Source: Pseudomonadota bacterium (GTDB taxonomy: Bacteria > Pseudomonadota > Gammaproteobacteria > Burkholderiales > Rhodocyclaceae). From it: a stretch of 35,074 nt of DNA. Below, piece after piece: positions 28,183-35,074 of the stretch. Both the position numbers and the translations under genes were made by a program. Under the pieces are notes generated by a model that worked only from the letters and a program-made list of their open reading frames with translations, was not told where the DNA came from and ran no database searches. The stretch spans positions 1 to 35,074 of the forward strand of contig QQUN01000038.1 of assembly GCA_008501585.1 (NCBI GenBank), written 5' to 3'. The stretch's first letter is position 1; every line of letters begins with the position of its first letter.

Positions 28183-29016
28183 GTGGCGACCTATGTGATT
28201 GGCGACGTCCAGGGTTGCCACGACTCGCTGCTTGCGCTGGTCAAGAAGATCCGCTTTCGCAGGGGCCGTGACCAACTGTGGTTCGTCGGCGACATCGTCA
28301 ACCGCGGCCCCCGGTCGCTCGATACCTTGCGCGCCATCCGCGGTCTCGGGGAGGCTGCGACGGTGGTGCTGGGCAACCATGATCTCTACCTGTTGATGGT
28401 GGCTGCCGGCTGGCGCAAGCGCGGCAAGGACGACACCCTCCAGCCCATCCTCGATGCGCCGGACGCCGACGAACTGCTCGACTGGCTGGCCGCCCGCCCG
28501 CTGATGCATGTGGCGGGGCGCTTTGCGATGGTGCATGCCGGGCTGTTGCCGCAATGGACGATCCCGCAGGCGCGGGCGCTGGCCAGCGAGGTCGAGGCGG
28601 TGCTCCAGGGGCCCGGAAGGCAAGCCTTTCTGGCCGATCTGGCCGGCAACGAGCCGGCTGCGTGGTCGGATGCGCTCAAGGGGCAAGACCGGTTGCGCTG
28701 CATCGTCAATGCCATGACACGCATGCGTTTTTGCTCGCCCGATGGCCAGATGGAGTTCAAGCACAAGGGGCCGCCAGGCAATGCGCCCGAGGGGGCGCTG
28801 CCGTGGTTTGCCATCCCCGGGCGGGCGCGTGACAGCCACACGGTGCTGGCCGGGCACTGGTCGGCCCTGGGGCTGCATCAGGTGCCCGGCTTTGTGGGGC
28901 TCGATACCGGGTGCCTGTGGGGCGGCAAGCTGACCGCCTATCGCCTGGAGGACGGCAAGGTCTTTCAGGTCAACGCGGTCGAAGCCCGCAAGTCAGCTCA
29001 GGCCGCTTCGCGCTGA
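28183..29016 (+). CDS. apaH: symmetrical bis(5'-nucleosyl)-tetraphosphatase
   Basis: It hydrolyses Ap4A to two ADP and can act on NpnN RNA caps. It has 277 residues, close to E. coli ApaH (about 280). Metallophosphatase motifs are GDVQGCHD at 7-14, GDIVNRGP at 36-43 and GNHD at 64-67. AHAG-type VHAGLLPQW, TRMRFC and LDTGCLWGG follow. Gln10 stands where the E. coli enzyme has His, a variant frequent in ApaH proteins. The GTG start at 28183 gives the family N-terminus; GTG 28180 directly abuts the wbpM stop, so translation may be coupled. Its end overlaps olsA tail to tail by 19 bases. Confidence 0.94.
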   Translation: MATYVIGDVQGCHDSLLALVKKIRFRRGRDQLWFVGDIVNRGPRSLDTLRAIRGLGEAATVVLGNHDLYLLMVAAGWRKRGKDDTLQPILDAPDADELLDWLAARPLMHVAGRFAMVHAGLLPQWTIPQARALASEVEAVLQGPGRQAFLADLAGNEPAAWSDALKGQDRLRCIVNAMTRMRFCSPDGQMEFKHKGPPGNAPEGALPWFAIPGRARDSHTVLAGHWSALGLHQVPGFVGLDTGCLWGGKLTAYRLEDGKVFQVNAVEARKSAQAASR

Positions 29017-29720
29017 GCCTCGGCGGCAGGGGCGGACGCCGGCGGTGCAACCCGTGCCGCGATGGCGGCATGCGCCGCGGTGGCGATGCTGCGGCGATTG
29101 GCGTCGATCGTGGCAAACGCCGGCAGAACGCTCACATGCACCTCGATGCACGGTGCGGCGATGATGGCCTTGAGGCTGTCCAGCACCGACAAGTCACCGT
29201 CGTAGGCCGCGGCTCGGGTGAACGCCCCGTTGGGCGTGCGATAACGCAGTGCCAGCGGCTGGATCGGCTGGCCGGCGCTGATGGCCGGTTGCAGCAGGGC
29301 GGCATGGAAGTGCTGCACATGCGAGCCGTCGGTCGTCGTGCCTTCCGGAAACACCGCCACATGCCGCCCGGCGGCCATGCGCGAGGCGATCTCGTCGTTG
29401 ATGATGCGCGCATGGCCGCGGCTGCCGCGCTGCAGGAACACCGTCTCGTTCATGGCAGCGAGCCAGCCGATGACCGGCCATTGGCGTACGTCGGCTTTCG
29501 ACACGAAGGCGCTGGGGCTCAGCGCGTTGATGGCGAAGATATCGACCCACGACACATGGTTGGCGATCAGCAGGGCGGGGTGGGCCAGGGCGTCGCCGTC
29601 GATGCGGAGCCGGAAGCCGAGCAGCGACAGCAGGCCTTTCGACCAGCGTTGGCGCAACTGCCCGCGCCGCTGGAGCGATAGCCAGGGGAAGACCAGCGCG
29701 GTGGTCAGCACGCCCTGCAC
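28998..29720 (-). CDS. olsA: lyso-lipid acyltransferase, probable OlsA (1-acylglycerol-3-phosphate acyltransferase family)
   Basis: It probably adds the second fatty acid to lyso-ornithine lipid, and may also act on lysophosphatidate. The PlsC catalytic motif is His55-x4-Asp60 in NHVSWVDIF, and the glycerol-3-phosphate binding motif FPEGTTTDG is at 124-132, counted from the GTG at 29720. PlsC-like sequence (RRAWRTTRLALHL) continues in frame upstream of that GTG without any ATG, GTG or TTG. The frame reaches a CTG at 29783 whose last two bases are in the olsB stop, so the true protein may be 21 residues longer. Pairing with olsB supports ornithine lipid synthesis over general phospholipid synthesis. 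Confidence 0.85.
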   Translation of the reverse strand: MQGVLTTALVFPWLSLQRRGQLRQRWSKGLLSLLGFRLRIDGDALAHPALLIANHVSWVDIFAINALSPSAFVSKADVRQWPVIGWLAAMNETVFLQRGSRGHARIINDEIASRMAAGRHVAVFPEGTTTDGSHVQHFHAALLQPAISAGQPIQPLALRYRTPNGAFTRAAAYDGDLSVLDSLKAIIAAPCIEVHVSVLPAFATIDANRRSIATAAHAAIAARVAPPASAPAAEAQREAA

Positions 29721-29779: not shown

Positions 29780-30538
29780 TCAGTCTTCGCGTCCCATGAA
29801 GTGTTTGGCGTACTTGGCGTCGAGGCGGCCCATGGGCATCAGGATCGGCAGGTCGGCCACGTTGAAGTCCGGATCCCAGGCCGGATCACCGCATACCCAT
29901 GCGCCTGCGCGCAGGTAACCCTTGATCAGCGGCGGGGCGTCGGTGTCCAGATCGTTGCGCAGTTTGTCGAGCGGCAGCGCGGCACGCGGGAACACCCGGT
30001 ACTCCAGCGGGGCCATGTGCTTCTCGCGGAGCTGATTATACAAACTTGCCGCGCGATGGCCGCCGTCGGCCATGCTCACCGAGGCGCAGCCGATCAGGTA
30101 GTCGTAGCCGTTCTCCTGCATGTAGCGCGCCAGGCCGGACCACAGCAGGGCGATGACGGCGCCCGAGCGGTAGTCGGCGTCGATGCACGAGCGGCCGATT
30201 TCGACCATGCGGTTGCGCAGATGCAGCAGGCGGGTGAGGTCGAACTCGTTTTCCGAGTAGTAGCCACCCACACGGCGGGCCGCGTCGGGGGGCAGGATGC
30301 GATAGGTGCCGACGATCTTGCCGTGGTCTTCGTCGCGCACGATGAGATGGTCACAGAACGGGTCGTAGATGTCGCGATCGACGCCCGGGGTGCGGGTGTT
30401 CAGGCGGGCACCCATTTCGTCGGCGAAGACACGGTAGCGCAGCTTCTGGGCTTCGACCACTTCGGTGTCGCAGGTGGCCAGACCCACATGGAGGTTGCGG
30501 CGGCGGCGAGCGGCGGAATCCTGGCGTTTGTCGAGCAT
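29780..30538 (-). CDS. olsB: L-ornithine N-acyltransferase, OlsB-like (GNAT fold)
   Basis: It would use acyl-ACP to acylate the alpha-amino group of ornithine, forming lyso-ornithine lipid. The 252-residue protein has QKLRYRVFADEMGA at 31-44, FCDHLIV at 61-67, VGTYRILPP at 76-84 and EIGRSCIDADYRSG at 113-126. This is the conserved order for OlsB and related hemolysin-type acyl-ACP N-acyltransferases. GGAG 6 bases upstream supports ATG 30538; ATG 30550 has no such site. It precedes olsA on the same strand. A multi-unit PhoB-type site lies upstream (30591-30630). A related long-chain N-acyl amino acid synthase is the main alternative. Confidence 0.87.
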   Translation of the reverse strand: MLDKRQDSAARRRRNLHVGLATCDTEVVEAQKLRYRVFADEMGARLNTRTPGVDRDIYDPFCDHLIVRDEDHGKIVGTYRILPPDAARRVGGYYSENEFDLTRLLHLRNRMVEIGRSCIDADYRSGAVIALLWSGLARYMQENGYDYLIGCASVSMADGGHRAASLYNQLREKHMAPLEYRVFPRAALPLDKLRNDLDTDAPPLIKGYLRAGAWVCGDPAWDPDFNVADLPILMPMGRLDAKYAKHFMGRED

Positions 30539-30574
30539 GACGTGCTCCATCGGTATTCAATGTCAATGGCCGCC

Positions 30575-30630
30575 ACTGTAGGAAGTGCAGGTTGCGCTCC
30601 CGTGACATGCGCTTTACTGCCGTGTGACAC
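30575..30630 (-). promoter_or_regulatory. putative PhoB-type promoter of olsB-olsA
   Basis: Read on the minus strand, 7-base units GTGTCAC (30630-30624), CAGTAAA (30619-30613), ATGTCAC (30608-30602) and GCGCAAC (30597-30591) recur exactly every 11 bases. Two units match the PhoB half-site core TGTCA well and two are weak. The last unit ends 10 bases before TACAGT (30580-30575), a 4/6 match to the -10 consensus, with no -35. Pho boxes are known to be 11-bp spaced direct repeats ending about 10 bp before the -10. That PhoB binds here is inferred. Confidence 0.6.
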
Positions 30631-30657
30631 CCGGCGGCGCGCGACGGCCGTTGCAGC

Positions 30658-30713
30658 CTGTCATGGCAATGTCACCGGGGCGTCACACGGATGTCGTGCC
30701 GCCGCGCGACAGT
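30658..30713 (+). promoter_or_regulatory. putative PhoB-type promoter of the glycosyltransferase gene at 30721
   Basis: Units CTGTCAT (30658-30664), ATGTCAC (30669-30675), GCGTCAC (30680-30686) and ATGTCGT (30691-30697) recur exactly every 11 bases. The first is a perfect Pho half-site. The array ends 10 bases before GACAGT (30708-30713), a weak -10 that keeps the A at position 2 and T at position 6. Transcription would start at about 30720-30721, at the ATG itself. Confidence 0.65.
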
Positions 30714-30720
30714 CGCCGTC

Positions 30721-31935
30721 ATGGACGCGAGCTTACTTTCCTATGTCGAGCTGCCCGCCGATGCCGACCGGCTGCGCGTGGCGGTGGTCACCGAAACCTA
30801 TCCGCCCGAGATCAACGGGGTCTCGCTCACCACGGCCCGGGTGGTCGACGGGCTGGTCAAGCAGGGGCACAGCGTGATGCTGGTCCGTCCGCGGCAGAGT
30901 GCCGGCGATATGCCGGCGCGGGAAGCGCAGTACGAGGAGATGCTCTCGCGCGGCCTGCCCATCCCCCGCTATCCGCACCTGAAGATGGGCTTGCCGGCGC
31001 GCAACGCATTGATCCGGCTGTGGTCGGTCCGGCGGCCAGACGTGGTGCAGGTGGTCACCGAAGGCCCGCTGGGCTGGTCGGCGCTGGCCGCGGCGCGCAA
31101 GCTGCGCCTGCCGACGATCACCGAGTTCCACACCAACTTCCACAGTTACAGCACCTACTACGGCGTCGGCTGGTTGAAGACGCCGGTAAAGGCCTACCTG
31201 CGGCGCTTCCACAACAAGGGCGATGTCTGCCTGGTGCCGACCCGGGCGATGGCCGATTCGCTGCATCAGGACGGGGTACGGCAGATCGAGGTCGTGCCGC
31301 GGGGGGTCGATACCGAGTTGTTCTCGCCTATCCGCCGCGATGAAGCCCTGCGCGCCAGTTGGGGCGCCGAGCCCCACACCCTGGTGGTGGCGGTGATCGG
31401 ACGCCTGGCGCCGGAGAAGAACCTGGGGCTGGCGATCCGTGCCTTCGAGGCGATTGCCCAGCGCGTGCCTGAGGCGCGGCTGCTGTTCGTGGGCGATGGC
31501 CCGTCGCGCGAGTCGCTGGCGCGGCGCTACCCCGAGCACAGCTATGCCGGCATGCGCACCGGCGAGGATCTGGCCGCGCACTATGCCTCGGCCGACATGT
31601 TCCTCTTCCCCAGCCTGACCGAAACCTTCGGCAATGTCACCACCGAGGCCCTGGCCAGTGGCCTGCCGGTGGTGTGCTTCGACTACGCCGCCGGTGCCGA
31701 GCGCGTGCGCAATGGCCACAACGGCTGGCTGGCGCCGGTGCCCGACGAGGACGCCTTCGTCGATGCCGCGCTGCGCGTGGCCAGCGACCGCAGCGCCCGC
31801 CTGGCCATGGCCGCCAATGCGCGCAAGAGCGTGCAGGATATCGGCTGGCCGGCGGTGGCCGGGAAGATGGTGCGGGTGATGAGCGGCATCATCAAGCAGC
31901 ACGAGGTGCGCCACGGCCTGTGGGTGCCCGGCTGA
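30721..31935 (+). CDS. glycosyltransferase family 4, possible glycolipid synthase
   Basis: A 404-residue GT-B enzyme. ETYPPEINGVSLTTARVVDG at about 25-44 is the N-terminal motif shared with SqdX, MgtA-type mannosyltransferases and Agt-like diacylglycerol glycosyltransferases. TEFHTNFHSYSTYYG, VPRGVDTELF and VIGRLAPEKNLGLAIRAF follow. E-x7-E is Glu301/Glu309 in ETFGNVTTEALASG. It has no O-antigen neighbours on its side and is divergent from olsBA, with a putative Pho box upstream. A role in making phosphate-free glycolipids under phosphate limitation is therefore inferred. No Shine-Dalgarno sequence precedes ATG 30721, so the mRNA may be leaderless. A longer frame from 30691 overlaps the Pho array. 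Confidence 0.83.
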   Translation: MDASLLSYVELPADADRLRVAVVTETYPPEINGVSLTTARVVDGLVKQGHSVMLVRPRQSAGDMPAREAQYEEMLSRGLPIPRYPHLKMGLPARNALIRLWSVRRPDVVQVVTEGPLGWSALAAARKLRLPTITEFHTNFHSYSTYYGVGWLKTPVKAYLRRFHNKGDVCLVPTRAMADSLHQDGVRQIEVVPRGVDTELFSPIRRDEALRASWGAEPHTLVVAVIGRLAPEKNLGLAIRAFEAIAQRVPEARLLFVGDGPSRESLARRYPEHSYAGMRTGEDLAAHYASADMFLFPSLTETFGNVTTEALASGLPVVCFDYAAGAERVRNGHNGWLAPVPDEDAFVDAALRVASDRSARLAMAANARKSVQDIGWPAVAGKMVRVMSGIIKQHEVRHGLWVPG

Positions 31936-32039: not shown

Positions 32040-32975
32040 ATGTCCATCCTCGTCTGCGGTTCGGTCGCCTACGACACCATCATGGTGTTCCACGACCGCT
32101 TCAAGAATCATATCCTGCCCGACCAGATCCACATCCTGAACGTGGCCTTCCTGGTGCCGGACATGCGCCGCGAGTTCGGCGGCTGCGCCGGCAACATCGC
32201 CTACAACCTCAAGCTGCTGGGCGCCGATCCGCTGATCATGGCCACCGTGGGGGACGATGCCGCCCCCTACCTGAGCCGGCTCGACCAGCTCGGTCTGCGG
32301 GCCGACCATGTCCGGCCGGTGCCGGGCGCGTTTACCGCTCAGGCCTTCATCACCACCGATGTCGATGACAACCAGATCACCGCCTTTCACCCCGGGGCGA
32401 TGAACCATTCGCACCAGAACCGAGTCTCAGAGGCCAAGGGTGTGACGCTCGGCATCGTCGCGCCGGACGGGCGTGACGGCATGCTCGGCCATGCGCAGCA
32501 GTTCGCTGAAGCGGGCATTCCGTTTGTCTTCGATCCGGGCCAGGGCCTGCCGATGTTCTCCGGCCCCGAACTCGAAGCCTGCTTGGAGATGGCCAGCTAC
32601 TGTGCGCTCAACGACTACGAAGCCCGCATGCTGAGCGAAAAGACCGGCCGCAGCATCGAGGATCTGGCCGGCGATGTGGATGCGCTGGTGGTGACGCTGG
32701 GGGCCGAGGGCTCGCAGATTTACGTCGAAGGACAACGAATCGACATCCCGTGCGTTAAGGCAGAAGCACTGGTCGATCCGACCGGTTGTGGCGATGCCTT
32801 CCGCAGTGGCTTGCTGTATGGCATCGCCAACGGGATGGACTGGGAAACGACAGGGCGCCTGGCCTCGGTGATGGGCAGCCTCAAGATTGCCCATCGCGGT
32901 GGCCAGAACCACCGCCCGAGCCGAACGGAAATTGCCGAGCGATACGCGGCAGCATTTGGAGAGAAACCATGGTGA
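32040..32975 (+). CDS. PfkB-family carbohydrate/nucleoside kinase (adenosine kinase-like)
   Basis: A 311-residue cytoplasmic kinase of the ribokinase fold. GGCAGNIAYNLKLLG at 47-61 is the substrate-side PfkB signature 1. The catalytic anion-hole motif DPTGCGDAFRSG starts at 246, with Asp252 as the predicted catalytic base. VVTLGAEGSQIY precedes it. The HILPDQIH and GAMNHSHQN segments resemble betaproteobacterial proteins often named adenosine or sugar kinase. The true substrate cannot be fixed. Its TGA overlaps the lipoprotein start region, implying a two-gene unit with a promoter at about 32005. Confidence 0.86.
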   Translation: MSILVCGSVAYDTIMVFHDRFKNHILPDQIHILNVAFLVPDMRREFGGCAGNIAYNLKLLGADPLIMATVGDDAAPYLSRLDQLGLRADHVRPVPGAFTAQAFITTDVDDNQITAFHPGAMNHSHQNRVSEAKGVTLGIVAPDGRDGMLGHAQQFAEAGIPFVFDPGQGLPMFSGPELEACLEMASYCALNDYEARMLSEKTGRSIEDLAGDVDALVVTLGAEGSQIYVEGQRIDIPCVKAEALVDPTGCGDAFRSGLLYGIANGMDWETTGRLASVMGSLKIAHRGGQNHRPSRTEIAERYAAAFGEKPW

Positions 32976-33464: not shown

Positions 33465-33857
33465 TCAGCCGAGCAGGACCAGCGCCCACACGGCGACGAG
33501 GTGGAGCAGCGCCAGCAGGACCGCGGCGCTGCCGATGTCCTTGGCGCGCTTGGCCAGCGGGTGTCGCGCCTGCGACACCCGGTCCACCACCGCTTCAATC
33601 GCCGAGTTGATCAACTCGGCGATCATCACCAGCAACACACTGCCCACCAGCAGCGCCTTGCCGACGCCGTCGGCGGCGCTCAGCAGGGCTGCCGGGATCA
33701 ATACCACGGCAAGGACGCATTCCTGACGAAAGGCGGCTTCGTGGCGAAAGGCGGCGGCCAGGCCGGCGCAGGAGTAGCGGAAGGCGTTGATGAGCCGGCG
33801 CAGGCCGGTGGCGCGGGGCGGCGGGAGATCCCCGGGTGGGGGGCTGCCGTGCGTCAT
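33465..33857 (-). CDS. dgkA: diacylglycerol kinase
   Basis: It phosphorylates diacylglycerol to phosphatidate in the inner membrane. The 130-residue protein has the three-helix prokaryotic DgkA layout. FRHEAAFRQE at 37-46 matches the amphipathic surface helix, ELINSAIEAVVDR at 81-93 is the catalytic signature, and AKRAKDIGSAAV at 102-113 lies before the last helix. The ATG at 33857 is 2 bases after the stop of the upstream DUF3426 gene, so the two are one unit. The Pro-rich first 15 residues are an extension relative to E. coli. It faces the lipoprotein gene convergently; a CGGCTCAGCCG hairpin in the 19-base gap and dgkA end could serve as terminator. Confidence 0.94.
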   Translation of the reverse strand: MTHGSPPPGDLPPPRATGLRRLINAFRYSCAGLAAAFRHEAAFRQECVLAVVLIPAALLSAADGVGKALLVGSVLLVMIAELINSAIEAVVDRVSQARHPLAKRAKDIGSAAVLLALLHLVAVWALVLLG

Positions 33858-33859
33858 GC

Positions 33860-35074
33860 CTACGGATAAAAGGCGTAGAGGCGGTAACCCGAGGCATTGA
33901 CGCCCTCGGCCGAAAAGGCCACCCGCGCCATGCGGTCGCTGTGGGCAGTGAAGCCGGCGGCATCGTCGGCGGCCGAACCCAGCCATTCTTGCGGCGGGAA
34001 CACGCGCCGCACCAGCGCCTTGTCCTGCATGTCGGTCAGCGTCAGTTCGAGATGGGGGAAGGCCATGGCCGTGTCGGCGCGGTTGCGCAGCGTCGCGGTC
34101 AGCTCGAACAGGGCGTCGGCGTCGGGCAGGCGGTTCAGGTCGGAGGCTTCGATGCCGATCTGGCTGGCGTCTCGCGGCAGGTCGAGGCTGCAGCCGACGT
34201 TGGCGCACAAGGCTTCAATGAACGGCCGGGTCGCCGGCAACAGACCGATGACGCTCTGGCGGTAGGTGAGGGTCAGTTGTGCGGCGAGTGCAGCGAGCAG
34301 TACGCCAACCGTCAGGCTCATCAGCCATGGGCTGCGTTTGCGCGGCGGCGCCAGCGTGGCGAGGGCGGACAGCGGCGGGGTGTCCGGGATGTCGGGCGAT
34401 GGCTCGGGCGGTACTTCGGCAGGCCCCGACCCCGCGGATTCGGGTTCGTCCGGATCGCGGGGGGCGTCGAAGCTGTCTTCGGCCTCCAGCGCTTCGGCGG
34501 TAATGACATCCTCTTGTTCGGCTTCGGCTTCGGCTTCGGCTTCGGCTTCGGCTTCGGCTTCGGCTTCGGCTTCGGCTTCGGCTTCGGCTTCGGCCTCCGT
34601 TTCGGCTTCGGCTTCGGCTTCGGGTTCGGCTTCGGCTTCGGCTTCGGCGTCGGCTTCGGCTTCGGCTCCTGCCTCGGCGTCTGCTTCGGCTTCCGCTTCG
34701 GCTTCGGCTGCGGCATGCGCTTCCTCCGCCGCATTCTCGGCAGGCGTCGTTGTGTCGGCCGGGAGGGCGACGGTCTCGCCGTCCGTCCATTGGCCGGGGG
34801 CTCGTCCGCTGGGCAGGTCGTCGAAGTCCCAGATGGTCTCGGGGCCACTGTCCGCGGTGTGCGTCGGCGCACGCTCCGGTGTCGTGTCGTCGTCTTCCGG
34901 CATCCAGGTGTCGAGATCCTGGAACAGCCGGCTGGATGAGTCGGCGGGCGCGCGGAAGCCGCTATCCTGCGGCACAGGTTCGGGTTCGGGCGCGGGTTCG
35001 GGCGCGGGTTCGGGCGCGGGTTCGGGCGCGGGTTCGGGCGCGGGTTCGGGCGCGGGTTCGGGCGCGGGTTCGGG
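33860..35074 (-). CDS. DUF3426 family membrane protein, N-terminus beyond right edge
   Basis: 404 residues are visible and the frame stays open to the window edge, so the start lies outside. The GTG at 34975 is only an internal Val within a Pro-Glu-Pro-Ala repeat. Order from the N-terminal side: PEPA repeats, an acidic linker, about 65 residues of Glu-Ala repeats, another acidic linker, then a membrane helix (WLMSLTVGVLLAALAAQLTL) near 34270-34330. The C-terminal DUF3426 domain follows, with LCANVGCSLDLPRD, DLNRLPDADALFELTATLRN and VFPPQEWL. Such proteins usually start with an MJ0042-type zinc ribbon, expected to the right. Its function is unknown. It is translationally close to dgkA. Confidence 0.85.
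   Translation of the reverse strand, partial: PEPAPEPAPEPAPEPAPEPAPEPAPEPAPEPEPVPQDSGFRAPADSSSRLFQDLDTWMPEDDDTTPERAPTHTADSGPETIWDFDDLPSGRAPGQWTDGETVALPADTTTPAENAAEEAHAAAEAEAEAEADAEAGAEAEADAEAEAEAEPEAEAEAETEAEAEAEAEAEAEAEAEAEAEAEAEAEQEDVITAEALEAEDSFDAPRDPDEPESAGSGPAEVPPEPSPDIPDTPPLSALATLAPPRKRSPWLMSLTVGVLLAALAAQLTLTYRQSVIGLLPATRPFIEALCANVGCSLDLPRDASQIGIEASDLNRLPDADALFELTATLRNRADTAMAFPHLELTLTDMQDKALVRRVFPPQEWLGSAADDAAGFTAHSDRMARVAFSAEGVNASGYRLYAFYP
34517..34713 (-). repeat. hexanucleotide repeat encoding Glu-Ala
   Basis: On the plus strand TTCGGC is repeated 13 times without change at 34517-34594, then continues imperfectly to about 34713. On the minus strand this encodes Ala-Glu repeats with occasional Asp, Gly, Pro, Thr. 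Copy-number change would keep the frame. Confidence 0.9.
34985..35074 (-). repeat. 12-bp tandem repeat encoding Pro-Glu-Pro-Ala
   Basis: The plus-strand unit TTCGGGCGCGGG recurs with perfect 12-bp period, 7.5 copies to the window edge, and encodes PEPA on the minus strand. It continues beyond the window. Confidence 0.9.

Follow-up and report, generated by a model that had tools for sequence, protein, structure and literature searches.

Predicted divergent Pho-box promoters between olsB-olsA and a glycosyltransferase gene in a relative of Denitromonas, with a candidate leaderless start on one side

The Pho boxes of E. coli repeat with an 11-bp period. In S. meliloti, transcription starts have been mapped behind 33 predicted PhoB boxes, and the box precedes the start by 22-25 nt in 16 of these cases; 171 starts of leaderless mRNAs have also been mapped there (PMC3616915). 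That PhoB regulates olsB and agt/plcP genes is a known theme. Pho boxes have been predicted upstream of olsB in members of Burkholderia sensu lato (PMC7814305) and, in P. aeruginosa, at both the plcP-agt1 operon and the separately located agt2 (PMC8528852), and plcP and agt form a known lipid-remodelling pair (PMC4796936).

The locus described here occupies positions 30575-30713 of a contig of 35,074 nt (hereafter the window, i.e., the whole stretch of DNA analysed), between olsB-olsA and the gene for a GT4 glycosyltransferase (GT). The closest named relatives of this genome in our search are Denitromonas, a genus of the Rhodocyclales. Like the Pho-box promoters of E. coli and S. meliloti, the region has TGTCA-like direct repeats at the -35 distance (PMC3616915); unlike them, it holds a divergent pair between two lipid pathways with four units per side, and on one side transcription is predicted to begin at the start codon itself. 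With the leaderless mRNAs of S. meliloti, the predicted GT message shares a 5'-terminal AUG, but the available text on those mRNAs describes no link to PhoB boxes (PMC3616915). As in Burkholderia, control of ornithine-lipid synthesis by PhoB is predicted in Betaproteobacteria; unlike here, the consulted part of that account mentions no glycosyltransferase gene in divergent orientation, and the word "divergent" is absent from its main text (PMC7814305). As in P. aeruginosa, a putative phosphate-starvation glycolipid pathway is spread over two loci, plcP and a second GT lying apart from the GT of the window. In contrast to agt2, as presented in the available part of that paper (PMC8528852), the separate GT here and olsBA lie on either side of one intergenic region, and a leaderless mRNA is predicted for the GT.

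The initial annotation described two arrays of four units with an exact 11-bp period, pointing in opposite directions and ending exactly 10 bases before TACAGT and GACAGT. Direct reading confirms these coordinates and spacings: two divergent four-unit arrays face outward, each with an exact 11-bp period, and on both strands 10 nt separate the last unit from the -10-like hexamer (Table 1). One caveat is that the TGTCA core is present in just two of the four minus-strand units in this genome, units 2 and 4 being degenerate. Both hexamers are poor fits to TATAAT.

Table 1. Features of the divergent region and its flanking genes (window positions)
Feature	Sequence	Coordinates	Strand	Remarks
olsA-like acyltransferase CDS		28998..29720	-	downstream of olsB
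olsB-like CDS		29780..30538	-	ATG 30538 present in 11/11 rows
Shine-Dalgarno core for olsB	GGAG	30545..30548	-	six nt upstream of ATG 30538
Predicted olsB transcription start		30567..30568	-	predicted from geometry, 7-8 nt past the -10
olsB-side -10-like hexamer	TACAGT	30575..30580	-	10 nt after minus unit 4
Minus unit 4	CGCAAC	30591..30596	-	7-mer GCGCAAC from 30597; degenerate here
Minus unit 3	TGTCAC	30602..30607	-	7-mer ATGTCAC from 30608; opens register ranked 1 of 70,084
Minus unit 2	AGTAAA	30613..30618	-	7-mer CAGTAAA from 30619; degenerate here
Minus unit 1	TGTCAC	30624..30629	-	7-mer GTGTCAC from 30630; [TC]GTCA[CT] in 11/11 loci
Gap between arrays		30630..30658		29 nt
Plus unit 1	TGTCAT	30659..30664	+	7-mer CTGTCAT from 30658
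Plus unit 2	TGTCAC	30670..30675	+	7-mer ATGTCAC from 30669
Plus unit 3	CGTCAC	30681..30686	+	7-mer GCGTCAC from 30680; opens register ranked 3 of 70,084
Plus unit 4	TGTCGT	30692..30697	+	7-mer ATGTCGT from 30691
GT-side -10-like hexamer	GACAGT	30708..30713	+	10 nt after plus unit 4
GT ATG		30721..30723	+	7 nt after the -10; predicted transcription and translation start
CDS of a GT4 glycosyltransferase, probably an Agt-like glycolipid synthase		30721..31935	+

The naming of the flanking genes as olsB, olsA and a glycosyltransferase fits their best profile matches. The leftward pair scores best against two NCBIfam models, OlsB (172 bits) and OlsA (144 bits); since these scores fall under the equivalog cut-offs of 350 and 300 bits, we call the products OlsB-like and OlsA-like only. 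A longer olsB reading frame would start at 30550, at an ATG that is absent from the other ten aligned rows, and conservation thus favours 30538 as the probable start. The predicted olsB leader is about 30 nt.

The best NCBIfam matches of the GT are two lipid-sugar GT4 models, GlcN-phosphatidylglycerol synthase and monoglucosyldiacylglycerol synthase, both below cut-off. In the PDB, it matches the "predicted glycosyltransferases" 3c4q and 3c48, which we presume to be MshA, together with PimA-type mannosyltransferases. Several homologues lie near plcP, and this linkage of a GT4 enzyme to plcP in relatives, combined with a Pho box, fits an Agt-type glycolipid synthase. In at least 6 of 61 genomes (G010, G011, G015, G017, G028, and G032), a stretch of about 8 kb holds olsB, plcP, GT and a second GT. 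The genome studied here splits the set, with olsBA and GT in the window and plcP and the second GT elsewhere (C70:29584-31487); the second GT, beside plcP, is 31% identical to the GT of the window, and its locus has its own Pho-like site. Matches resembling dgkA are present in 53 of 249 locus records, in several cases directly upstream of GT (e.g., L078, L051, and L058), and dgkA near GT and plcP fits an enzyme that uses diacylglycerol. Because GT genes of relatives lie near plcP, dgkA and olsB, the GT is probably a glycolipid synthase; judged from these neighbours and the weak family matches, its product is most likely a glycolipid.

A functional role for the arrays predicts that their units are kept among relatives. 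This is what we find in the 11 loci with the divergent gene pair, of which one comes from another genus and the rest from 10 genomes of this genus: unit-like hexamers occupy each of the eight in-phase positions in 11/11. In eight diverged loci, identity in the unit columns is 82% on the minus side and 84% on the plus side, compared to 40% and 39% in the 5-nt linkers (one-sided rank test, p = 2e-5 and 9e-7, respectively, for columns that are not fully independent). Both weak minus units are stronger in L014, L015 and L017, where unit 2 is TGTCAC or CGTCAC in place of the AGTAAA found here and unit 4 is CGCAAT. The olsB-side -10 in relatives reads TAGAGT, TAAAGT or GAGAAT.

While spacing within each array is constant across the 11 loci, the arrays themselves lie 17, 18, 21, 26, 28 or 29 nt apart. 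This bears on the idea that both arrays form one cooperative looped regulatory complex in which the symmetry is important, an idea that the divergent layout and the similar unit numbers per side would suit. We rejected it and regard it as very improbable: a gap that ranges from 17 to 29 nt between arrays of fixed internal spacing does not point to a joint structure, and most GT homologues with the lattice have no divergent olsB in the sequenced flanks examined. Selection thus appears to act on each array and not on their separation; arrays that are kept across a variable gap argue for two promoters and not for a single composite site.

The initial annotation also held that chance was an unlikely source of the symmetry. 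Taken alone, a loose genome scan could suggest otherwise: YGTCAY-N5-YGTCAY-N5-YGTCAY with up to three mismatches gave 50 matches in the 4.29 Mb of this genome, compared to 45 for the reversed control pattern. There is no overall enrichment, and loose three-unit matches therefore carry no meaning. The 50 also include sites upstream of ppk1-like, phoB and plcP genes, and the minus array is itself an ordinary three-mismatch match. Plus units 1-3, by contrast with this background, are the sole zero-mismatch triple in the 4.29 Mb, and the only one-mismatch site also falls in the plus array. The shorter pattern TGTCA-N6-TGTCA occurs at six places in the genome, one of them in the region studied. The other five, labelled from open reading frames, are at HlyD-like, metal-efflux-like and metallo-beta-lactamase-like genes, at the start of a PutA-like gene and inside a NUDIX-like gene; for these five, no link to phosphate was found.

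A scan with a PhoB weight matrix, a check proposed at the outset, is more telling. The promoter matrix comprises two units, N10 and the -10 and was built from 19 phoB promoter sites of relatives, none from the window (of 30 phoB promoters, 21 scored above 24; L240 and L246 were dropped; identical sites were counted once). The first matrix, used for locating sites, was iterated jointly on phoB and plcP promoters, again with none from the window. Among the 70,084 positions of the window, the phoB-trained matrix ranks the minus array first and the plus array third, in exactly the registers described. We take the second-ranked position (minus strand, 24697) as chance, with its poor units CGGAAA and CTTCAC. 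That the arrays are chance repeats within GC-rich intergenic DNA is hence hardly credible; the conservation in 11/11 loci already contradicts it, and the difference between units and linkers and the matrix ranks bear out the original judgement.

Which regulator reads the arrays? The genome encodes PhoB (363.8 bits; curated cut-off, 296.2), and the sequence elements of a Pho-box promoter are present, with TGTCA-like units at 11-bp intervals and the last unit approximately 10 nt before a -10. The genome's own phoB promoter, TGTCAT-N5-CGTCAA-N10-TAGACT, has a layout like that of both arrays. In relatives, phoB promoters likewise consist of two units separated by N5, then 10 nt and a -10 that is mostly TAGACT, else TACACT or TAATAT. 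For pstS, 12 loci were available (L158 and L160 unscored), seven of them from the genus: three of these seven (L154, L156, and L157) show the array layout with a GAGAAT -10 and score 18.0, 17.0 and 12.0, and the other four, including the genome's own locus (5.3), score weakly. At plcP, six congeners, this genome among them (L161-L166), have a promoter of four units, 10 nt and CACACT; the other four genus plcP promoters (L168, L170, L174, and L175) have a two-unit array, a TAG-type -10 and a longer leader. The units of L163 are TGTCAT, CGCAAT, TGTCAC and TGACAC, and the CGCAAT among them shows that the CGCAAY type of unit occurs in a second array.

Matrix scores were also compared with a background of 2,978 windows from every second locus, the loci being clustered against redundancy. 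Scores above the 95% background point were obtained upstream of 22/31 olsB, 33/56 GT and 16/22 plcP clusters and of none of the controls (0/13 pfkB and 0/2 apaH clusters); above the 99% point there are six olsB, eight GT, eight plcP, zero pfkB and zero apaH clusters. The counted loci are related, and these counts are not independent events.

The same arrays could in principle be read by another OmpR/PhoB-family regulator, the genes then answering another signal. About a dozen further full-length regulators of this family are encoded in the genome, and 11-bp tandem sites are common in the family. We nevertheless rejected this reading, which is improbable, since phoB, three of seven genus pstS loci and plcP of six congeners share like units, spacing and -10 distance, and since the downstream genes resemble phosphorus-free lipid pathways for which phosphate control has been predicted or shown elsewhere. 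PhoB is the most economical candidate reader of both arrays.

Taken together, the phoB-trained matrix, the conservation, the presence of PhoB and the layouts of the phoB, plcP and three pstS promoters support the divergent double Pho box first proposed, and we consider it highly probable that 30575-30713 comprises two independent divergent PhoB-activated promoters. Under phosphate starvation, phosphorylated PhoB would bind the 11-bp-spaced direct repeats, replacing a -35, and recruit RNA polymerase to the -10 hexamer 10 nt past the last unit, the promoters being presumably of the sigma70 type. Leftward transcription would yield an olsB-olsA message for ornithine lipid, with the leader and Shine-Dalgarno core described above. 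Rightward transcription would yield a GT message that, with only moderate probability, starts at the A of the ATG, in which case PhoB would set the ribosome's start codon directly at the RNA 5' end. The GT would most likely build glycolipid from diacylglycerol freed by the phospholipase PlcP, whose operon elsewhere in the genome appears to have its own Pho box. By analogy with the plcP-agt1/agt2 split in P. aeruginosa, the Pho boxes before olsB in Burkholderia and the plcP-agt pair, joint induction of ornithine lipid and glycolipid under scarce phosphate is the most likely role of the region.

Regarding the proposed start at the GT, we defined leaderless geometry as an AUG without a Shine-Dalgarno core and with a -10 ending 6-8 nt before it. 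The GT ATG conforms: no core is present in -18 to -4, and the distance is 7 nt. In homologues, starts were assigned blind to the promoter: counting back 17 codons from a fixed residue, the closest in-frame ATG was taken. Loci below 48% identity or with a match starting beyond residue 26 were dropped and identical rows were merged, leaving 97 GT loci; the comparison set for Shine-Dalgarno cores and -10 hexamers kept 99, with slightly different bounds. Using xANNNT as a loose test for a -10, a hexamer ending 6-8 nt before the ATG is present in 81 of the 97 non-identical GT loci (background rate, 12%) and in 41/56 clusters. Among other genes, the same test is positive in 3/47 olsB, 2/26 phoB (four of 30 phoB rows, without an ATG at the expected place, were dropped), 3/35 pfkB and 15/32 plcP loci. 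Shine-Dalgarno cores precede 10/97 GT genes, compared to 43/47 for olsB and 20/26 for phoB. They are also few before plcP (2/32) and before pfkB (7/35), the nucleoside/sugar kinase gene downstream of GT (window 32040-32975, plus strand); as pfkB mostly lacks a core, its absence alone is weak evidence.

Of the GT loci, 72 have a good unit pair no more than 60 nt away; in 70 of these, the start codon falls in phase 0-2 of the 11-bp lattice, and in 67 of those 70, xANNNT sits at exactly the spacing predicted by the phase. The corresponding figures for the 56 GT clusters are 36/37 in phase and 33/36 with xANNNT at the predicted spacing. Distances from unit end to ATG cluster at 22-24, 33-35 and 44-46 nt, the two longer classes being cases in which an earlier unit pair scored best. 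These distances can be set beside the 22-25 nt between box and mapped start at 16 of the 33 S. meliloti boxes (PMC3616915). In the olsB control, expected to be negative, 11 of 30 unit pairs are in phase 0-2 (eight expected), or 3/11 within 60 nt.

The promoter might be real and the GT mRNA nonetheless carry a leader, if transcription began farther upstream or translation inside the gene; the spacing at the ATG would then be incidental. The promoter itself is common to this reading and to the leaderless one. In favour of a leader, 10 of the 97 GT loci have a Shine-Dalgarno-like tetramer, and a -10 at 6-8 nt is missing from 16/97 and, in a later set, from 11/23. Against it stand the lattice phase in 70/72 loci and the codon pattern. 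When the first 17 GT codons are compared among six close congeners, third positions account for 50 of the 74 nucleotide differences, and codon pairs show 44 synonymous compared to 19 non-synonymous changes; this third-position bias indicates that the N-terminal peptide is translated from ATG 30721 or from upstream, and an upstream start would fall inside the promoter. A leader thus seems possible but rather doubtful. On the geometry, we lean towards a leaderless GT mRNA with its 5' end at the A of ATG 30721.

The later set covers other families of the class (30 of the 32 matching genomes; 29 loci, from which six without an in-frame ATG were dropped to leave 23). A -10 at the ATG is present in 12/23 GT loci, less often than in the first set, and of the 10 loci whose unit pairs fall within 60 nt, nine are in phase. 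It is reasonably likely that in many lineages of Betaproteobacteria, and in some other families of the class, the Pho lattice is locked together with the -10 and the AUG as one unit. Some GT genes lacking the lattice lie close to olsBA or plcP and are perhaps operon-internal.

Searches of the literature at the level of titles found no paper on a leaderless PhoB-driven glycosyltransferase and none on a Pho region common to olsB and GT. As far as searched, a divergent region common to olsBA and GT is a new arrangement, and no counterpart was found for a Pho lattice that is locked to the -10 and AUG in a conserved way, as at the GT. In Denitromonas, a single short region is predicted to switch on the synthesis of ornithine lipid as well as glycolipid, the two phosphorus-free lipid branches. 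If the leaderless reading is true, activator site, promoter and start codon are joined in one conserved unit in a family of lipid-remodelling genes, and a phosphorus-saving lipid enzyme would be translated distinctly during phosphate starvation, when ribosomes are scarce. Such genes would offer a natural way to test whether phosphate-starved cells favour leaderless translation. The prediction is sharp to a single nucleotide, placing the 5' end of the low-phosphate GT mRNA at the A of the ATG.

Some minor observations concern the surrounding loci. At the plcP promoters L161-L166, CACACT lies 8 nt before the ATG, and plcP is possibly leaderless there as well. A dgkA gene (prokaryotic diacylglycerol kinase) is present in the window at approximately 33465-33857 (minus strand), 1.5 kb past GT, and a second lies near plcP (L161:3487-3789). 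Next to the window copy, a DUF3426 protein (33860-35074, minus strand) has long EA-rich repeats, with PEPA repeats at the window edge. At another locus, a ppk1-like gene is divergent from a ppx-like gene and has three Pho-like units immediately before it (L119, 1501-1528); both genes are named from their open reading frames.
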